From Parietichytrium sp. I65-24A (lineage: Eukaryota > Sar > Bigyra > Thraustochytrida > Thraustochytriidae): DNA of 28,751 nt. The position numbers were made by a program, and so were the translations under genes. Positions 13,683-27,009 of this stretch are shown one piece after another (the first letter of the stretch is position 1; each line of letters begins with the position of its first letter). The DNA lies in assembly GCA_012862575.1 (NCBI GenBank), contig BLSF01000147.1:1-28751 (forward strand). The letters run 5' to 3'. The notes beneath the pieces were generated by a model. That model did no database searches. It saw only the letters and a list, made by a program, of their open reading frames with translations, and had not been told where the DNA came from.

Positions 13683-15123
13683 ATGGGCGAGGAGGGCGAA
13701 GTGGCCGTGTCGTACGCGTACCAGGAAGGGCACCGCGAAGTTGCGTCCTGGTGCAAACGCGCGGGCGTGGCGAAGGTGCAGTACGGGAACGGGGATAGCT
13801 TCGAAGGGTACTTTAATCATCGCAGGGAGAAGGAGGGCGAAGGCACGTACGTTTACGTTGGGGAGGATGGGCAGAAGAATGTGTACAGAGGCACGTGGAA
13901 GAGCTCTGTGCGGCACGGGTTCGGCGTGTTGAAGTATGCGAATGGGGACTGCTACGAGGGCATGTGGTAAGTTGGGGCTGTCGGTGGGGTTCGGTCGCGT
14001 CTTGAAAAAATCGTCATCAGACGACTGTCGGGTGGTGAAATCTGAGATGGAGCTTGTTTGTTCGTGTTTTTTGGCGGTCAGGAACGACGGGAAGCGCCAC
14101 GGACAGGGGACTTTTCGTTACGCGAACGGAGATGTTTTCAGTGGCGAATGGGTGAACGACGAAAAGCAAGGGCACGGCGCATATGTCTTCGCGAAGCCGG
14201 AGAGCCAGCTAGTGGGCATCTGGAAGGGCAACGAGATCGTTCGTGGCAAGTGGATCACCCCAGATATGACCAGTTATCACGGCGACTTCGCCGGCGGGAA
14301 ACCGATTCGCGCGGGGATCTTTTACCACCCCAATGGCCTAAAGCAGGAGGGGACCTATGTCGAGTCAAAGTCCGGGGAGGACGAGGACGCAGAAGAGGAC
14401 GGCGAGCCTGCGCAAAAGCCGCGTGCCTTTGCAGGAGGAAAAGTTTCGTTTTCCCAAGCGTCCACACGTGACCTTGTATTTAAATCGAGCAACGTCGCTG
14501 TGGTGGACGATGACGATTTTGTCATCAAAGCGAGGCCAAAGCCTCCTGCCGCAGCTGAGTCAAAAAGCGAGGAGAAGGAGTCTGACGCCGAACTTCCCGA
14601 AGTAGTCGTGGAGGAGAAGGACGCCATCCAATGCTTGTTCGAAGAGGTTGACACTGATCAAGATGGTGGCATCGGCCTCGACGAGCTCGTCGACTGCCTC
14701 TCGCAAGCCCAGGAAAATGAAAAGTTTTCCGCCTTGCTGAAAGCCGCCCCACAGCTCTCGAGCAAGGAGAAGCACACATTTTTTAAGGACGTGGACGCTG
14801 ATGGCAATGGCAAGCTGAACATGACCGAGTTTAGGGATTATTTCTACATGCTGAAATTGTTTAATTTCGTAGATGCCGATGAGAATGGTAAGGTTCGTCA
14901 TTCAGAGCTGAGGTCTGCATTGATTGAACACCCGGAGGCATTCCCTCCACACTTTGGAGAGGCCGGAACGTCTCGAATCGCTACTTCGGCGATGATGACT
15001 GCTGGAGACGTTGACAACGACAAACAGCTTAGCTTTCCTGAATTTGTGAAGATGATGCTGGCTGTTCAGGATGCCATGGATTCTTCACGGCAAGAGGACC
15101 TCGAAAACGAAGAGAAGGAGTAG
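13683..15123 (+). CDS. MORN-repeat and EF-hand calcium-binding protein, two exons
   Basis: The coding sequence is 13683-13966 joined to 14082-15123 and gives 441 residues. The N-terminal half consists of about seven MORN repeats, for example YANGDCYEGMW joined across the intron to NDGKRHGQGTFRYANGDVF; MORN repeats bind lipids or scaffold proteins at membranes. An acidic linker follows. The C-terminal part holds four EF-hand loops with full ligand patterns at residues 285-296 (DTDQDGGIGLDE), 333-344 (DADGNGKLNMTE), 359-370 (DADENGKVRHSE) and 404-415 (DVDNDKQLSFPE). It probably acts as a Ca2+-responsive membrane scaffold or sensor. The start directly follows a GACA microsatellite and has an AAGATGG context. 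An AATAAA lies at 15211-15216. It is convergent with the Na+/Ca2+ exchanger. Confidence 0.88.
13967..14081 (+). other. Spliceosomal intron in the MORN/EF-hand gene
   Basis: The donor is GTAAGT (13967-13972) and the acceptor is GGTCAG (ending 14081); the length is 115 nt. It splits a Trp codon after its second base. Splicing restores the MORN consensus YEGMW-NDGKRHGQG, whereas reading through would hit a TAA at 13968-13970. It is the only intron I can support in the window. Confidence 0.9.
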
Positions 15124-20800: not shown

Positions 20801-21610
20801 TCTTGCTAAGGGGGAAGTGCATCTACTACTAAATGCGCCGCTAAGAAGCTCCCATCCTTACCTTTATTTACCACACGCGCACGCCAACTTGCTTTGCCCG
20901 AACCAGTTTGTAGTTTACATCATGGAGGTTCTTTTGTTCAGAATGCGAGGCCAGGACCCGTTGAGTCATTGGACCTGATCAACGATCGGCGTTCACTGTC
21001 CAGGTCACGCGAACCCAAAGAGGCCCAAAGAGGCGGGCGAGGCGAAAAGAAAGAAAGTAAGAAAGTAAGAGAACATGGATGAACGAGATGACGAGACACC
21101 AATGTATTGTCGTCGCTTGCACTTCTTGCAGTGCATGTCCAGATGTTCCCAAACAACTCCACGCACACGGTCGAGTGGTTAAGTCAATAGGAATTTCTTG
21201 GCCAAATCAATAGGAGTGTCCTTCTTCCACACGCCGTAGATGTAAGTTCTATAGTTCAGACTATGTGAACCTAAGTGGCGCGAGCTAAGACCCACTAGTA
21301 CACACGCATTGGTTGGTAGTGTTGGATAGAGGATAATCTAGCAGCTGCGCAGTACTTTCGAAAGCTGTGCAAAGAGTGTTGGGTGATGTTGGGTGGATGA
21401 CCCTTACAGTCCGGACGAAATACTGGTTTGCGAGTACCAACAAGGGGTCCTCGCGGAGCCGATCGCGTACGCCACTACGTGTGATTAACGGGAGAGTAGA
21501 AGGGCTGGCCTGGCGACCCGTTTGGGCCTGACTCTGCGGGAGACGGGAGGCAGGAGGCTGGGCGGATCGAGAGGTCAGGAGAGAGGGGGTTTGGGAAGTG
21601 GGTGCTTAAA
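17817..21610. other. 3.8-kb gene-poor region
   Basis: The first few hundred bases are the presumed exchanger promoter. After about 18240 base composition falls toward A/T and no frame has convincing coding character. Visible items are an ambiguous base (n) at 18411, a CTCCCCCCT-type pyrimidine tract (about 18297-18430) around it, and a small hairpin AAGTTAG-TTG-CTAACTT (about 18503-18519). Variants of ATTCAGAAT/ATTCAGAGTTCAGAAT recur (about 18957-18978, 19651-19684, 20150-20178). There is a TATATATAGTG at about 19453-19463, duplicated CATTGATCA (about 19583-19607), and ACATGTG repeats (about 20635-20670). Two small ATG frames (18849-19046, 65 codons; 19343-19558, 71 codons) cannot be judged. 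The last about 400 bp are probably the promoter of the myosin-like gene. Confidence 0.4.
18165..18197. repeat. (GAGT)n microsatellite upstream of the exchanger
   Basis: Eight consecutive GAGT units lie about 350 bp upstream of the exchanger start on its 5' side. It is one of many tetranucleotide runs found near gene starts in this window. Confidence 0.85.
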
Positions 21611-24600
21611 ATGTCGGCCCCAGAGTTTGTGCAGCGCCGCAAGTACTCGGAGGCAAGGCAGTACTTGACCCGCAAGGCAGCGGATGTGGAATATGAGCGG
21701 TGGATCAAAGGGCAGCTCGTGTGGCTCAAGCAAAAGGGGCCGGTGTATCGTCCTGCGAAAGTGAACGTGGCGTTCGACAAGGGCGCGGAGAATGGAGGAA
21801 TGGTCATGTACAAAGAGGGCGGCAAAGTGAAGAAGGTCAAACTCTCAGAGGCTCTGACGACTCAGATTCTTAGTATGGGGACAGAAAACCTGCAGTGCTA
21901 CCCTCACTTCTCCCCGGACAAGCTTAGGGATATCAGCGAGCCAGCGCTGTTTCACAATATTCGCATGCGCTTCGAGATGGGGTACAGATTCCAGACGGTA
22001 AGCGACAATATTTTGCTCTTTTTGAACCACGAATTCGAGACGGACGTTCCCACACTCTCCACTCTGTCAGACTTTGGTGACGATGGGTTTGATGACCTTT
22101 CGCCTGGTGAGGCAGAGGAGTCCGATCCAATCGCGTGCACGGAGAATCTCAGCTCCATCGTATCGCGGGCATTCCAGAGACTTGTTGAGAGCAGTGGAAA
22201 ATCTTCTCAATCGATCGTGATCAATGGGTGTGAAGGTTCCGGTAAACGCGACGTCACAAGATTTGTCCTCCTGCGCGCAATCCAGCTTTCCAAACCGAAG
22301 AACGCCAACTGGTGGCAAAAGCTGCTAGCGGGTGACTTGCTGTTGCAGGAACTGGGCGGCGAAAATGGCTACGTTCGCTGGACCGAGTTGCAGCTCTTGT
22401 TTGACAAAAACCGCAAAGGAGGTAGCGTCTTTGGCGGGAAGAAGCCTGGGTCAGAGAGTATTCAGCCACAGCTCCTAGGTGCCGTATGCAACGCTTTCGG
22501 GCTCGAGCAATCTAGAGTCACGGAAGGCGAGCTGTTCCCAATCTTTGTTAGCTTGGCAGAGCACGCCTCTCTTAGCCGCGATCAGTTCCGGTACCTGCAC
22601 AATCGCGAGGCATCCGGAACGCAAGCACAGGGGTGGGCCAAGGTCATGGAGAGCATGGAGATTCTCGGTCTTGGCGCAGACTTGCGAGAGGGGTTGCAGC
22701 AGGCCCTCGTCGGCATTTTGGACTCGGGAAACATTGATTTTGCCGACGTTCAAGACGTAGATGATGATGACGAAGCCAGACGCAAGGAGGAAGAGCTTGA
22801 GCATCAAATGGGCGATAGTGAAAAGATGGTTCTTGGCGTCAAACTCGGCGATCTTCGGAGTGCTCTCAAGATCAAGACCATCCACGTCAAGCAGGAAACG
22901 TTCGAGAAAGAGCGAACCATAAAAGAAAAGTACGCCGTGCGTGATGGCCTTGCCCGTGTACTTTACTCGTCTCTCTTTGACTGGTTCATCGACATCATCA
23001 ACAAGGAGGTATCACGTATCGACGACGTACTGCAGTCCGCGTTGGCTAAAGCTCAGCCCAAGCCAGGAAAGGAGCAGGAGAGCCCGGCTCCACGCGATGC
23101 GGTGCGAAGGCAAAGCCGGGTCAAATCAGGGGCCATCAACCTGTTTCGAAAGAGCTCGCTGCGGGGCGCGAAAGAAAAGCCCGCAGAAAGTCCTAAAGGC
23201 ACCGCAGAAGAGAAGAGCAAGTCATCCAAGGCCAGAAAAGCAGCCCAGGCCACCAAAACGAAGGGTGTCATTGGTATCATTGGAGTGCTGGAGAACGCGG
23301 CAATGGTCCGCACAGAGTCAACTTTGGAAGACCTGTACCACAACTACCGCCTCGAGAGGTTTCAAGAATTCTTCACGCATGACATTGTGAGTCGTAATAC
23401 GAGGGTGCTCAGTGACAAGTGCGGTGTACGGTCCCCGCAGCCTCCAAAGCCTTCTGCGAATGACCTCGTGCTTCGACTGTTCTTGGGTTCTGTGCACAAG
23501 GACGTGGCCGCGTTCTCGGCAACTCAAGTGGAACCGGCGCAGACTGCTCTTCAAAAGGCAAGAGGTAGGCTGTCGGCCCGATATCAACTTGGCAAGGCCA
23601 AAGATCAGCAGGACGTCCTTGGCGGTGGCGGGCTGGGCTTGCTGCAGCAAATTGAGGAGGAAATTCACTTACCGGGCGGAAGTGACAAAGGCCTGGCAAG
23701 AAAAATTATTAAAAAGTCCAAGCTGAGCACTGCAATATCAAAGGCAACGAACGCAGACTTTACCATCCGGCATTATGGCGGGAAAGTGCTCTACAACTTG
23801 CACGGATTCGTGGATAGAAGTCGCGCCAACATCATCCCAATACAGGTCTTGAGGCTGCTGAAAGAAACGTCCAAGAATCCCCTCGTGAGGCAGGTTGTCG
23901 GGTTCAAGCGAGACCCCATCAGTGAGAGTGGCGTCATGGCAAAGCGAGAGTTCCAGTCCATGCTTGAGTTGGACAACAAGGCAGTGGAGGATGCCGCCCT
24001 CGCAAATATGGACCCCTCGGAGCTGACAAACGGCGAGCGAGCTGGCCGTGCAGAGACAGCAAAGCGAATTTACAATGAAATGAATCGTGCTGTGACGATT
24101 CTGGGCCGAACGCAAGTGGAGTTCATTTTCTCGCTCGCATCAAATACGGAGGCAGACCCCGATGGTCGACTTGATGGGAGCTTTCTCCTCGAGCAAATAA
24201 GAGTGCTTGGTCTTTCCGAAACTGTGTGCGGTAAGATGTACGACACTCTTCGCGGGGAGGGGATACCTGCTGAAGCATTTGCGCGGCGCTACCGCCCTAT
24301 TCTGAGATCGGCAGACTTCTCAAACGATTACCACAAGAACCCAGAAAAGTTGTGCAAAATGCTCGAGTCGATGAACCTCATTCGCGAGTATTCGTGTACG
24401 TCCGGAATGAGTGTACTCCTGAGCGCAAAATCCTTCTTTGCTCTCGAGACCGCTTTGCGCCTCATTCAAATTGAAGCCACACAATGCATTCAAAGGCTTG
24501 TGCGAGCCGCCTTCCGCAAGCGCCGAAAGCACCTTTTTGCAAAAATTATGGAGGAGGAAGATGATGAGGATGCAGAGGTCATTATTCTCGAGGAAAGCGA

Positions 24601-24619
24601 AAGCGAAGACGAAGAATAA
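21611..24619 (+). CDS. Divergent myosin-head protein with degenerate nucleotide site (putative pseudo-motor)
   Basis: From the ATG at 21611 the product has 1002 residues. The myosin motor order can be followed throughout: ALFHNIRMRFEMGYRFQTV (start of the motor core), the P-loop GCEGSGKR (206-213), GELFPIFVSLAEHASLSRDQFRYLH (HIFYQLL-like), LRSALKIKTIHV, VRDGLARVLYSSLFDWFIDI (about 443-462), LEDLYHNYRLERFQEFF (relay region), NADFTIRHYGGKVLYNL, LDGSFLLEQIRVLGLSETV, and PAEAFARRYRPIL (converter approach). One IQ motif (IQRLVRAAFRK, 960-970) and a short acidic tail follow. The active site is broken: the P-loop Thr/Ser after Lys is Arg, switch I (NxNSSRFGK) is absent in the expected place near 251-264, and switch II (DxxGFE) reads ENAAMV (561-566). 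A basic insert of about 85 residues lies before switch II. ATP hydrolysis is therefore unlikely; a scaffold or actin-binding role is inference. Confidence 0.85.
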   Translation: MSAPEFVQRRKYSEARQYLTRKAADVEYERWIKGQLVWLKQKGPVYRPAKVNVAFDKGAENGGMVMYKEGGKVKKVKLSEALTTQILSMGTENLQCYPHFSPDKLRDISEPALFHNIRMRFEMGYRFQTVSDNILLFLNHEFETDVPTLSTLSDFGDDGFDDLSPGEAEESDPIACTENLSSIVSRAFQRLVESSGKSSQSIVINGCEGSGKRDVTRFVLLRAIQLSKPKNANWWQKLLAGDLLLQELGGENGYVRWTELQLLFDKNRKGGSVFGGKKPGSESIQPQLLGAVCNAFGLEQSRVTEGELFPIFVSLAEHASLSRDQFRYLHNREASGTQAQGWAKVMESMEILGLGADLREGLQQALVGILDSGNIDFADVQDVDDDDEARRKEEELEHQMGDSEKMVLGVKLGDLRSALKIKTIHVKQETFEKERTIKEKYAVRDGLARVLYSSLFDWFIDIINKEVSRIDDVLQSALAKAQPKPGKEQESPAPRDAVRRQSRVKSGAINLFRKSSLRGAKEKPAESPKGTAEEKSKSSKARKAAQATKTKGVIGIIGVLENAAMVRTESTLEDLYHNYRLERFQEFFTHDIVSRNTRVLSDKCGVRSPQPPKPSANDLVLRLFLGSVHKDVAAFSATQVEPAQTALQKARGRLSARYQLGKAKDQQDVLGGGGLGLLQQIEEEIHLPGGSDKGLARKIIKKSKLSTAISKATNADFTIRHYGGKVLYNLHGFVDRSRANIIPIQVLRLLKETSKNPLVRQVVGFKRDPISESGVMAKREFQSMLELDNKAVEDAALANMDPSELTNGERAGRAETAKRIYNEMNRAVTILGRTQVEFIFSLASNTEADPDGRLDGSFLLEQIRVLGLSETVCGKMYDTLRGEGIPAEAFARRYRPILRSADFSNDYHKNPEKLCKMLESMNLIREYSCTSGMSVLLSAKSFFALETALRLIQIEATQCIQRLVRAAFRKRRKHLFAKIMEEEDDEDAEVIILEESESEDEE

Positions 24620-25097
24620 GCTGGCCGCGGCAGAAGGCAACTGAAAACAAAATTTGAGTATACATTACAATTGAAAAATCAAACATCGTCTTTTAAAACT
24701 TTAATTTAGCCTTCTGAAGATTGGACAGTCAGTCCCCCTTGGCCAATTCTGCGGTATCTCGGAGGCCCACAGGCCAGAGATGTAGTGGCGCATTTGCGGA
24801 TACTCACCTTCGTTTCCCGAAACAAATGCACGAACGATTCGGGCATGCGAGTGGCGACCTTTACTCTTCAAACACGGAGGGATCAGCGACTCACTTCGAT
24901 TTATCAGTGTGTCAAAGGCGAGCGTGCGATCGAAGAGTAGTTCGTCCGAGCAACTTGCGCTCTACAAAGGACTGCCACTATAACGAAGAACCTTCTTGCC
25001 GTTTTCATGACTTTGGTGCGGCTATACATGACAGGAATTTTTATACTGTTGATAAAATAGCCAGTGTTTGATATAGTTATGTACATGCAACGACAGG
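24620..25097. other. Convergent spacer between the myosin-like and FeeM-like genes
   Basis: The spacer is 478 bp between two stop codons. Its start is A/T-rich and would hold the myosin-like 3' end. A 116-codon plus frame (24721-25071) starts with TTG rather than ATG and has no recognisable motif, so I do not call it a gene. Confidence 0.4.
24644..24657 (+). other. 14-nt 3'-flank motif shared with enoyl-CoA hydratase
   Basis: This is AAAACAAAATTTGA, 25 nt after the myosin-like stop, identical to 10673-10686. Confidence 0.25.
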
Positions 25098-25727
25098 TCA
25101 ACACCGTGACCGCAGTAATGTTGCATTGTGTACGTTCTTCATACATTTATCAAGATACACGGCCACAACGACAACGTCATTCTCCTCGAGGTCGCCTGGG
25201 TACTTCACTGTTATAGGGAGTATGAAGCATCCCAAGGGCTTGTACAGAGGATTGAAGAATACCTGACGACATGCTCCGAGAAGAAGCACGTTTTGGCCGT
25301 ACTGCCGTTGCACATACATTAGTGCAAATGAAAAGGCTTTGAAAATGTTAACCTTTCTCCTTGCATGTTTTAGAATCGCCAACCTGTTGAACTCGATGCA
25401 CTTGTACCCTTGAGAGTGAATCAAAGTTTTATGAGCGCCGAAGTTGCAAAATTGCTCAAACTCGAGACTGTCCGACACAACGACGCGAAAGCAGCCCAAG
25501 AGCTCTCCGTAACTGTCCCTAAAACCAAACCACACGCTCCTCTCGTCAAATCTCGAATGCAGGAGCTTTTCAACGTGGTCTGACCAGACGCCTGTCTCGG
25601 GATGCGGCTCGTTCCATCCATATTCTTCACAATAAACCTTGTACAGCAAGCGCTTTGCTTGGACAACTGAATCGCTATTCAGCACCTCATAGCTGACGCT
25701 GCCGCGTTGCATCATGTGTTCTCCCAT
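25098..25727 (-). CDS. GNAT-fold acyltransferase-like protein resembling FeeM/autoinducer synthases
   Basis: The frame is open from 25838, but the first ATG is at 25727, giving 209 residues; a stop lies just above 25838. The pattern is that of N-acyl amino-acid synthase (FeeM) and acyl-homoserine-lactone synthase domains. It shows an early helix KRLLYKVYCEEYGWNEP (family: YRLRYRVYVEE), an acidic/Trp region (ETGVWSDHVE), the strand LGCFRVVVSD (family: GTxRLV), the hallmark IEFNRLAI (family: xExSRLAV), a helix with ARRKVNIFKAFSFALMYVQR, and the late LLGACRQVFFNPLYKPLGC (family: YxxLGF). FeeM-type enzymes transfer a fatty acyl chain from acyl-carrier protein to an amino acid. No signal peptide or membrane helix is seen. 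A TATAATAA at about 25852-25860 (minus) could be its promoter. The substrate is unknown, and GNAT-fold proteins outside this family remain possible. Confidence 0.65.
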   Translation of the reverse strand: MGEHMMQRGSVSYEVLNSDSVVQAKRLLYKVYCEEYGWNEPHPETGVWSDHVEKLLHSRFDERSVWFGFRDSYGELLGCFRVVVSDSLEFEQFCNFGAHKTLIHSQGYKCIEFNRLAILKHARRKVNIFKAFSFALMYVQRQYGQNVLLLGACRQVFFNPLYKPLGCFILPITVKYPGDLEENDVVVVAVYLDKCMKNVHNATLLRSRC

Positions 25728-27009
25728 AGCGCCGACCCAGCGTTCTGCCAACCAACGAGCGTTGCGGACTTGCACAATTATCTGCTGCAGCCTGCCTGTG
25801 CGACTTGCGTTGAGGGTTTGCTCCTTCTCAAGTATCACCGTTTCGCTTTAACTTATTATAAGCACAAGCCTCGGGTTATATTTTGGCGTAAATGGTCAAG
25901 TTAAATGGTTGGAAAGCAGAAGAGAAGAAGGCTGAGAAGAAGGAGACCAGTGATTCAAAGTACTGCACATTGCACGGCGTAGTCAACATGCAGCCATGAA
26001 GTGTGCAGCCAAAGAGGCGGAGGCAGCTTGACGAACTTTTAAAGCACCGGCACGCTTCAAGCTAACGCGGCCGGACCGAGTCCTCCCTGTCCGTGCTATG
26101 TTTTGTAGAAGTTTTGTAGAACTCGAAGAAAGCGCTATTCTGTTAAGTGCAAGTGTGCTGGTGCGAGTAGCGAGCATGAGAGACATGAGAGCATAAGTGT
26201 GATCGGGACTAGCACTTTCTTCGCCGGGTTAGCCAGCCTAACCAACACCCACAGTCAGCAAAGAAAGTATGTATAGTACACGAGCTCGGCCACGAGGCTG
26301 AATGAATTGCAGTGCGGGCACCGAAGCATTCACTGTCACTGTAAATGCCACTGTCAGTTCAAGCTCATAAAAGCTCGAACGGCGGTCGGTCGGCTGAAAC
26401 CATGTGCTCTCAAGTCGGCCAGCACGAAGCAAAATTCTTCTCTCTTTGAAACACATACCGGCGCTTGCACATACTCTAGCTAACCGGACTAGAGTACGTA
26501 CCCGTACATATCGTTCTTTGACTGCGAGAGTAATGCGCTTCCCGACTCTTTTGCCCCCGTCACTGCTATAACTGCTATCAGCCGGCAAGCTAGTATCCGT
26601 GTGCACAACTCACAAGTAGGTAAAGTGTTCGGGGGCATTCGGGGGCCCTAACTCTGCACTAGAGACGATCGTTCAGCGCGCGCTTATCGTAGCCTTAAGG
26701 AGCTGTTAATTACCAACAGCGTCTGCAGATGTCAGCAGCCAATGAGTCAGTTCAACCAGAGAAATAAAAAAATGTAGGACTTAACGTGCAGCTAGTGCAG
26801 CTCGCAATGCAAGTTCGTAAGGAATTCTTAAGATCTTATAAGCCGTGAACTACATGCTAGTGTTGCTAGCTAGCTAGGGGTGAAAGCTACAGTTACATAA
26901 CTTGCAACAGACTACTAACCTGGTTAGCTCTGCCAGACCCAGAGCTGAGGCACTAGTAGGACCAACTGTGAGGAGTGTAGTACACGTACGTAGTACACTA
27001 CGGACCGTG
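25728..27009. other. Gene-free region upstream of the FeeM-like gene
   Basis: I see no convincing gene on either strand. A 122-codon minus frame (26238-26606) has no motif and an uneven composition. Short items are GAAGAAGGCTGAGAAGAAGG (about 25922-25942), a CTAGCTAGCTAG run (about 26865-26876), and a doubled TAGTACAC around ACGTACGT (about 26978-26999). Confidence 0.4.

Follow-up and report, generated by a model that had tools for sequence, protein, structure and literature searches.

Two divergent myosin heads with altered nucleotide-binding motifs in Parietichytrium sp. I65-24A: a candidate pseudo-myosin lineage

The DNA analysed here, referred to as the window, is a stretch of 28,751 nucleotides (G000:C147:1-28751) within the 42.5 Mb assembly of Parietichytrium sp. 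I65-24A. A gene on its plus strand encodes a divergent myosin head in a frame that begins with an ATG at 21611, ends with a stop codon at 24617-24619 and is open already from 21500. The features of this gene are given below, in which the paralogue is L009, a second gene of the same genome.

21611-24619, plus strand: pseudo-myosin gene, a single open frame including the stop, 1002 residues
22226-22249, plus strand: P-loop equivalent GCEGSGKR (residues 206-213), Lys kept and Arg in place of the Mg-binding Thr; the paralogue has GAESSGKR
22355-22393, plus strand: GGENGYVRWTELQ at the approach to switch I; GYVRWTELQ is identical in the paralogue
22823-23020, plus strand: upper 50K stretch (residues 405-470), part of the best Pfam stretch; 38/66 residues identical in the paralogue
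23021-23254, plus strand: Lys/Arg-rich insert before switch II (residues 471-548), net charge +10
23291-23308, plus strand: switch II equivalent ENAAMV (residues 561-566); ETSSLV in the paralogue
23630-23716, plus strand: equivalent of the lower 50K helix-loop-helix (residues 674-702); 23/29 residues identical in the paralogue
24122-24145, plus strand: FIFSLASN in the position of FIRCIKPN
24488-24523, plus strand: single weak IQ-like string IQRLVRAAFRKR, seen by eye and not found by Pfam
24548-24616, plus strand: short acidic C-terminus of about 23 residues

Two other reading frames of the window are recorded here. The open frame adjoining the pseudo-myosin gene (25098-25838, minus strand) shows marginal similarity to FeeM N-acyl amino acid synthase, a family known from bacteria (28.2 bits, cut-off 27), and 13936-15123 on the plus strand encodes a protein in which MORN repeats occur together with four EF-hand stretches.

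The initial annotation had described a myosin head with a long intact frame and proposed a profile search against PF00063, and the description is borne out: the 1002 residues are uninterrupted and the Pfam Myosin_head profile matches them in three stretches with 125.2 bits (E 3.3e-36), well over the curated cut-off of 33.3, which L009 also exceeds with 112.6 bits. When the window protein is compared with PDB sequences, the best 60 of 127 matches are myosins, with myosin Va at the top (E 3.8e-17), and a profile of the pair finds myosin XV at 5.7e-25 (best 60 of 132 matches). In a profile-profile alignment against five ordinary myosins of this genome, the probability is 99.9 over 627 columns at 23% identity; the homology covers almost the entire head. 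Because the single-sequence AlphaFold model of the window protein failed (mean pLDDT 35.8, pTM 0.25) and was set aside, we infer the myosin fold from sequence alone.

The motif letters initially read in the window protein, namely GCEGSGKR, no switch I, ENAAMV and FIFSLASN, are all reproduced by the alignments and by hhalign. The Thr of the P-loop binds Mg in ordinary myosins, and the consensus GESGAGKT that contains it is found in neither copy, GCEGSGKR being present in the window protein and GAESSGKR in L009, with the same S-to-E and T-to-R changes in a common GxExSGKRDVTRF. Switch I (NxNSSRFGK) is absent from both proteins, which carry GYVRWTELQ instead, and DxxGFE of switch II is replaced by ENAAMV and ETSSLV, respectively, where a common IGIIGVLE is followed by NAA in the window protein or TSS in L009. 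The MAFFT alignment puts the switch II register about four residues off, and hhalign backs the register of the initial annotation.

A Myosin_head search of the 42.5 Mb assembly returns at least 65 match rows from at least 51 scored candidates, which were grouped by hand into 49 loci including the window gene; the other 48 were retrieved and aligned. About 49 myosin loci in 42.5 Mb, many of them matched over nearly the whole head in one frame, is a large repertoire in comparison with other genomes. The motifs G[ED]SG[AS]GK[TS], NSSRF and DxxG[FL]E are kept in 46 of the 49 aligned loci, and all three are lost only in the window gene and L009. Counted among the 46 is L042 (G000:C12:435965-438025), an otherwise canonical myosin read as two pieces that are separated by an in-frame TAA, possibly an intron. 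The remaining locus, L010 (G000:C75, 752-7000, plus strand), is a third odd myosin of at least 2083 residues, with partly changed motifs (GVSGSGKS, CGDSTCFSK and EAKGFG) in which Walker A is kept. It has the longest end branch in the myosin tree, and its Pfam matches are IQ, PH and two SAM stretches, together with a RanBP zinc finger under the cut-off.

Searching the window protein against its own genome gives 45 match rows, which comprise the protein itself, one full-length relative and 43 rows that match ordinary myosins only in part, the best of them with E 6e-18. The full-length relative is L009 (G000:C59, 881-4417, minus strand; E 1e-217), an open frame of 1179 residues, about 170 of which are extra with respect to the window protein; 444 of 950 aligned residues (47%) are identical between the two. 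When 45 ordinary myosins are compared, L042 and L010 being excluded, 89 columns show conservation in 90% of them or more. Both copies retain 36 of these columns, one copy retains 11 and neither retains 42, and the replacement is identical in the two copies at 26 of these 42; L010 keeps 56 of the 89. Because the same losses and replacements occur in both copies, the simplest reading is that the shared motif losses came before the duplication that would have produced the pair.

In four trees the two proteins group together as a clade whose stem measures 2.2-4.0 changes per site, as against 0.40-0.58 for the tips, and most of the change, the shared motif losses included, therefore appears to have preceded the duplication. 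The position of the pair differs among the IQ-TREE run (stopped by time), FastTree and the mixture model with and without L010. By path, the rows closest to the pair include L001, L003 and L006, and a union of the pair with L001, L003, L006, L019 and L031 is not rejected (p-AU 0.417), although these five, unlike the pair, keep the canonical motifs. The tail of L009 weakly resembles the helical tail repeats of L001, L003, L006 and L031 (18.4 bits, as compared with at most 7.8 in 2000 shuffles), in a test that is not independent because the likeness was first spotted by eye; the whole L009 frame reaches only 9.6 bits against the helical repeat model, and L007 reaches 13.8. Direct tail comparison is also weak, with a best E of 0.011 for L009 and nothing under 0.06 for the window protein, and descent of the pair from the L001 group is thus only a lead. 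Relatives of the pair number zero in viral contigs and zero in prokaryote contigs, neither of which is a protist collection, and ordinary myosins number zero in the viral contigs.

The lower-50K helix-loop-helix is the main actin element of known myosins, and its equivalent is retained in the pair. By alignment columns, the stretch before switch II in the window gene is both the longest (88 residues) and the most basic (+13) of 48 myosins, followed in basic charge by that of L009 (61 residues, +7). The equivalent of loop 2 has a net charge of 0 and -2 in the pair and -3 in L010 and is positive in 42 of the 46 ordinary loci, so the non-basic loop 2 of the pair speaks against strong actin binding. 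The initially annotated IQ motif stands only as a loose IQ-like string, about 30 residues before the end of the window protein, since Pfam finds no IQ match there and gives L009 14.9 bits (cut-off 20.3); such a weak motif speaks against a classical lever. Of the structured acidic tail initially described, the acidic end is present, and its being structured is without support.

Constraint on the pair was assessed from the differences between its members. The window gene and L009 differ at 398 first, 309 second and 623 third positions of 950 codons, and pN is 0.38 and pS 0.74; dS is saturated, so a precise dN/dS is not obtainable. When the window gene is mutated at random to half the divergence seen at third positions, an average of 27.9 stops arises and none of 1000 runs gives fewer than 16, whereas neither copy contains any. 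In three pocket windows, chosen after the alignment was seen, 69 of 94 residues are identical in the pair, a value that random windows equal in 12 of 20000 draws, although a comparison of two sequences has low power. The changed pocket is among the best-conserved parts of the pair. Set against the rest of the head, the pocket has 75 of 111 residues identical and the rest 285 of 659. Ordinary myosin pairs with 40-60% identity in the rest of the head (46 of 990 pairs) have a median pocket identity of 71% (range 58-82%), and because the pair resembles them, its pocket constraint is ordinary in strength. The content of the pocket is not ordinary, with 25-26% identity between the pair and ordinary myosins and means of 52-66% among the latter; for the rest of the head the values are 20-21% and 25-34%. 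A head retained under selection with its catalytic residues lost, which is what defines a pseudo-myosin, is thus found in both copies, and the altered motifs have been inherited under constraint and are not noise. Taken together, the sequence data argue strongly for an old, constrained two-gene lineage of putative pseudo-myosins.

Whether the altered motifs could instead reflect decay or a misread gene was considered in light of these data. The loss of the catalytic motifs and the very long stem branch would suit a decaying pseudogene of an ordinary myosin, but frames of 1002 and 1179 codons have stayed open despite saturated synonymous change, and the pair shares its replacements and a conserved pocket, which makes decay extremely improbable. 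It was initially proposed that the head is a pseudo-motor rather than a gene in decay, and this view is strengthened by the existence of L009 with the same losses, by the two open frames and by the conservation of the changed pocket. Canonical motifs could also be hidden by introns and restored by splicing; the in-frame TAA that interrupts L042 indicates that introns may occur in this genome. Against this, the three forward frames of 21401-24900 are free of P-loop, Walker A and switch II patterns and contain just two strings resembling switch I, namely NSSR at 23367 and, upstream of the gene, NKGSSR at 21439, and L009 reads uninterrupted through the same elements with matching replacements; hidden introns are highly improbable. 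Both readings were thus tested, by way of the open frames, the forward-frame motif scan and the stop simulation, and found to be very unlikely.

Two further explanations accept a functional head and differ in what it would bind. A divergent myosin could still bind nucleotide and act as a slow structural switch without Mg-dependent hydrolysis, given that GxxxxGK is kept in both copies, the Lys of which leaves some nucleotide binding possible, and that conservation of the pocket relative to the rest is about that of comparably diverged ordinary pairs. However, neither copy retains the P-loop Thr, switch I or the two switch II residues Gly and Glu, and an Arg at the Thr position would be expected to occupy the Mg site, so that we regard a nucleotide switch as rather unlikely. 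Alternatively, the protein may be a myosin-fold scaffold that no longer binds actin and whose surface is reused for another partner, as might be suggested by the neutral to acidic loop 2 equivalent, the changed FIRCIKPN region and the unusually basic insert before switch II. This explanation deserves consideration but is also doubtful, as the lower-50K helix-loop-helix is among the best-conserved parts of the pair (23/29).

The reading that we favor, with moderate confidence, is that the window protein is a dead myosin head, one of two in an old lineage under purifying selection, which probably acts as a non-motile attachment protein. Lacking switch I, the Thr that coordinates Mg and two residues of switch II (Gly and Glu), the head would neither hydrolyze ATP nor cycle on actin, and it is because of this predicted inability that an attachment role in a fixed state is proposed. 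Docking to actin or to a partner may occur through the kept lower-50K helix-loop-helix, the upper-50K surface and the added basic insert, and the short neck possibly carries one light chain. In both copies, the kept Lys212 may act with the new Glu208 and Arg213 to keep the pocket in a single conformation, substituting for a nucleotide. The roles suggested initially, as a scaffold, an actin tether or a calmodulin-bound regulator, would all be conceivable.

A bolder and improbable extension of the attachment role is that the rebuilt pocket locks the head permanently in one nucleotide-like state. The head would then clamp actin or a partner without cycling, and in this way regulate or anchor the active myosins of the genome, roughly 46 in number. 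In such a pocket Glu208, normally Ser, would imitate a phosphate and be held by Lys212, and Arg213, at the position of the Mg-binding Thr, would take the place of Mg.

The domain composition of the pair sets it apart from two known classes. Class 18 myosins have a PDZ domain and a long coiled-coil tail, a combination not found here, with no Pfam PDZ match in the window protein or L009. The fusion to chitin synthase of class 17 is likewise not found, Pfam matches being limited to Myosin_head in the window protein and to Myosin_head with a sub-cut-off IQ in L009.

Pseudo-myosins are already in print, and the present pair would add a variant to them; no description of it was found in the open-licence literature, and the available portions of PMC5795050 and PMC5378345 contain nothing on it. 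The accessible text of PMC5583752 makes a general remark on pseudo-myosins as a kind and names a divergent class 17B, and SchsMyoE and class-77 in that text may be similar divergent myosins. In Trypanosoma cruzi, MyHd is described in the available part of PMC7300353 as a pseudomyosin, a myosin head without the P-loop region that is thought to be inactive, and it localized to the cytopharynx when tagged and overexpressed. Compared by description only, the P-loop is lacking in MyHd, whereas that of the window protein is present with its Lys kept and its Thr changed to Arg. The initial annotation considered the loss of all three motifs unusual, which is fair but not without precedent, as Magnaporthe Chs5 is stated to have none of them in its class 17 myosin-like domain (PMC3276572, available text). 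Chs5, which probably belongs with class 17B, is part of a chitin synthase, whereas only Myosin_head is found by Pfam in the window protein. In CsmA, according to the accessible part of PMC4425547, actin binding by the myosin-like domain is needed and point mutations in the P-loop or switch I are without effect. Myo18A and Myo18B have DTxGFQ at switch II and a quoted P-loop change at Glu (PMC11112018 and PMC7900500, in the portions available), which are milder changes than those of the window protein, which has lost the P-loop Thr, switch I and both the Gly and the Glu of switch II and has a minimal tail. The published pseudo-myosins considered here either belong to another enzyme, retain a large part of the pocket or have received little description. 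The present pair is a free head with all three elements changed, conserved in two copies beside 46 canonical loci, which makes it a clear setting in which to ask how a myosin fold functions without ATP and whether side chains of the pocket itself can lock it.
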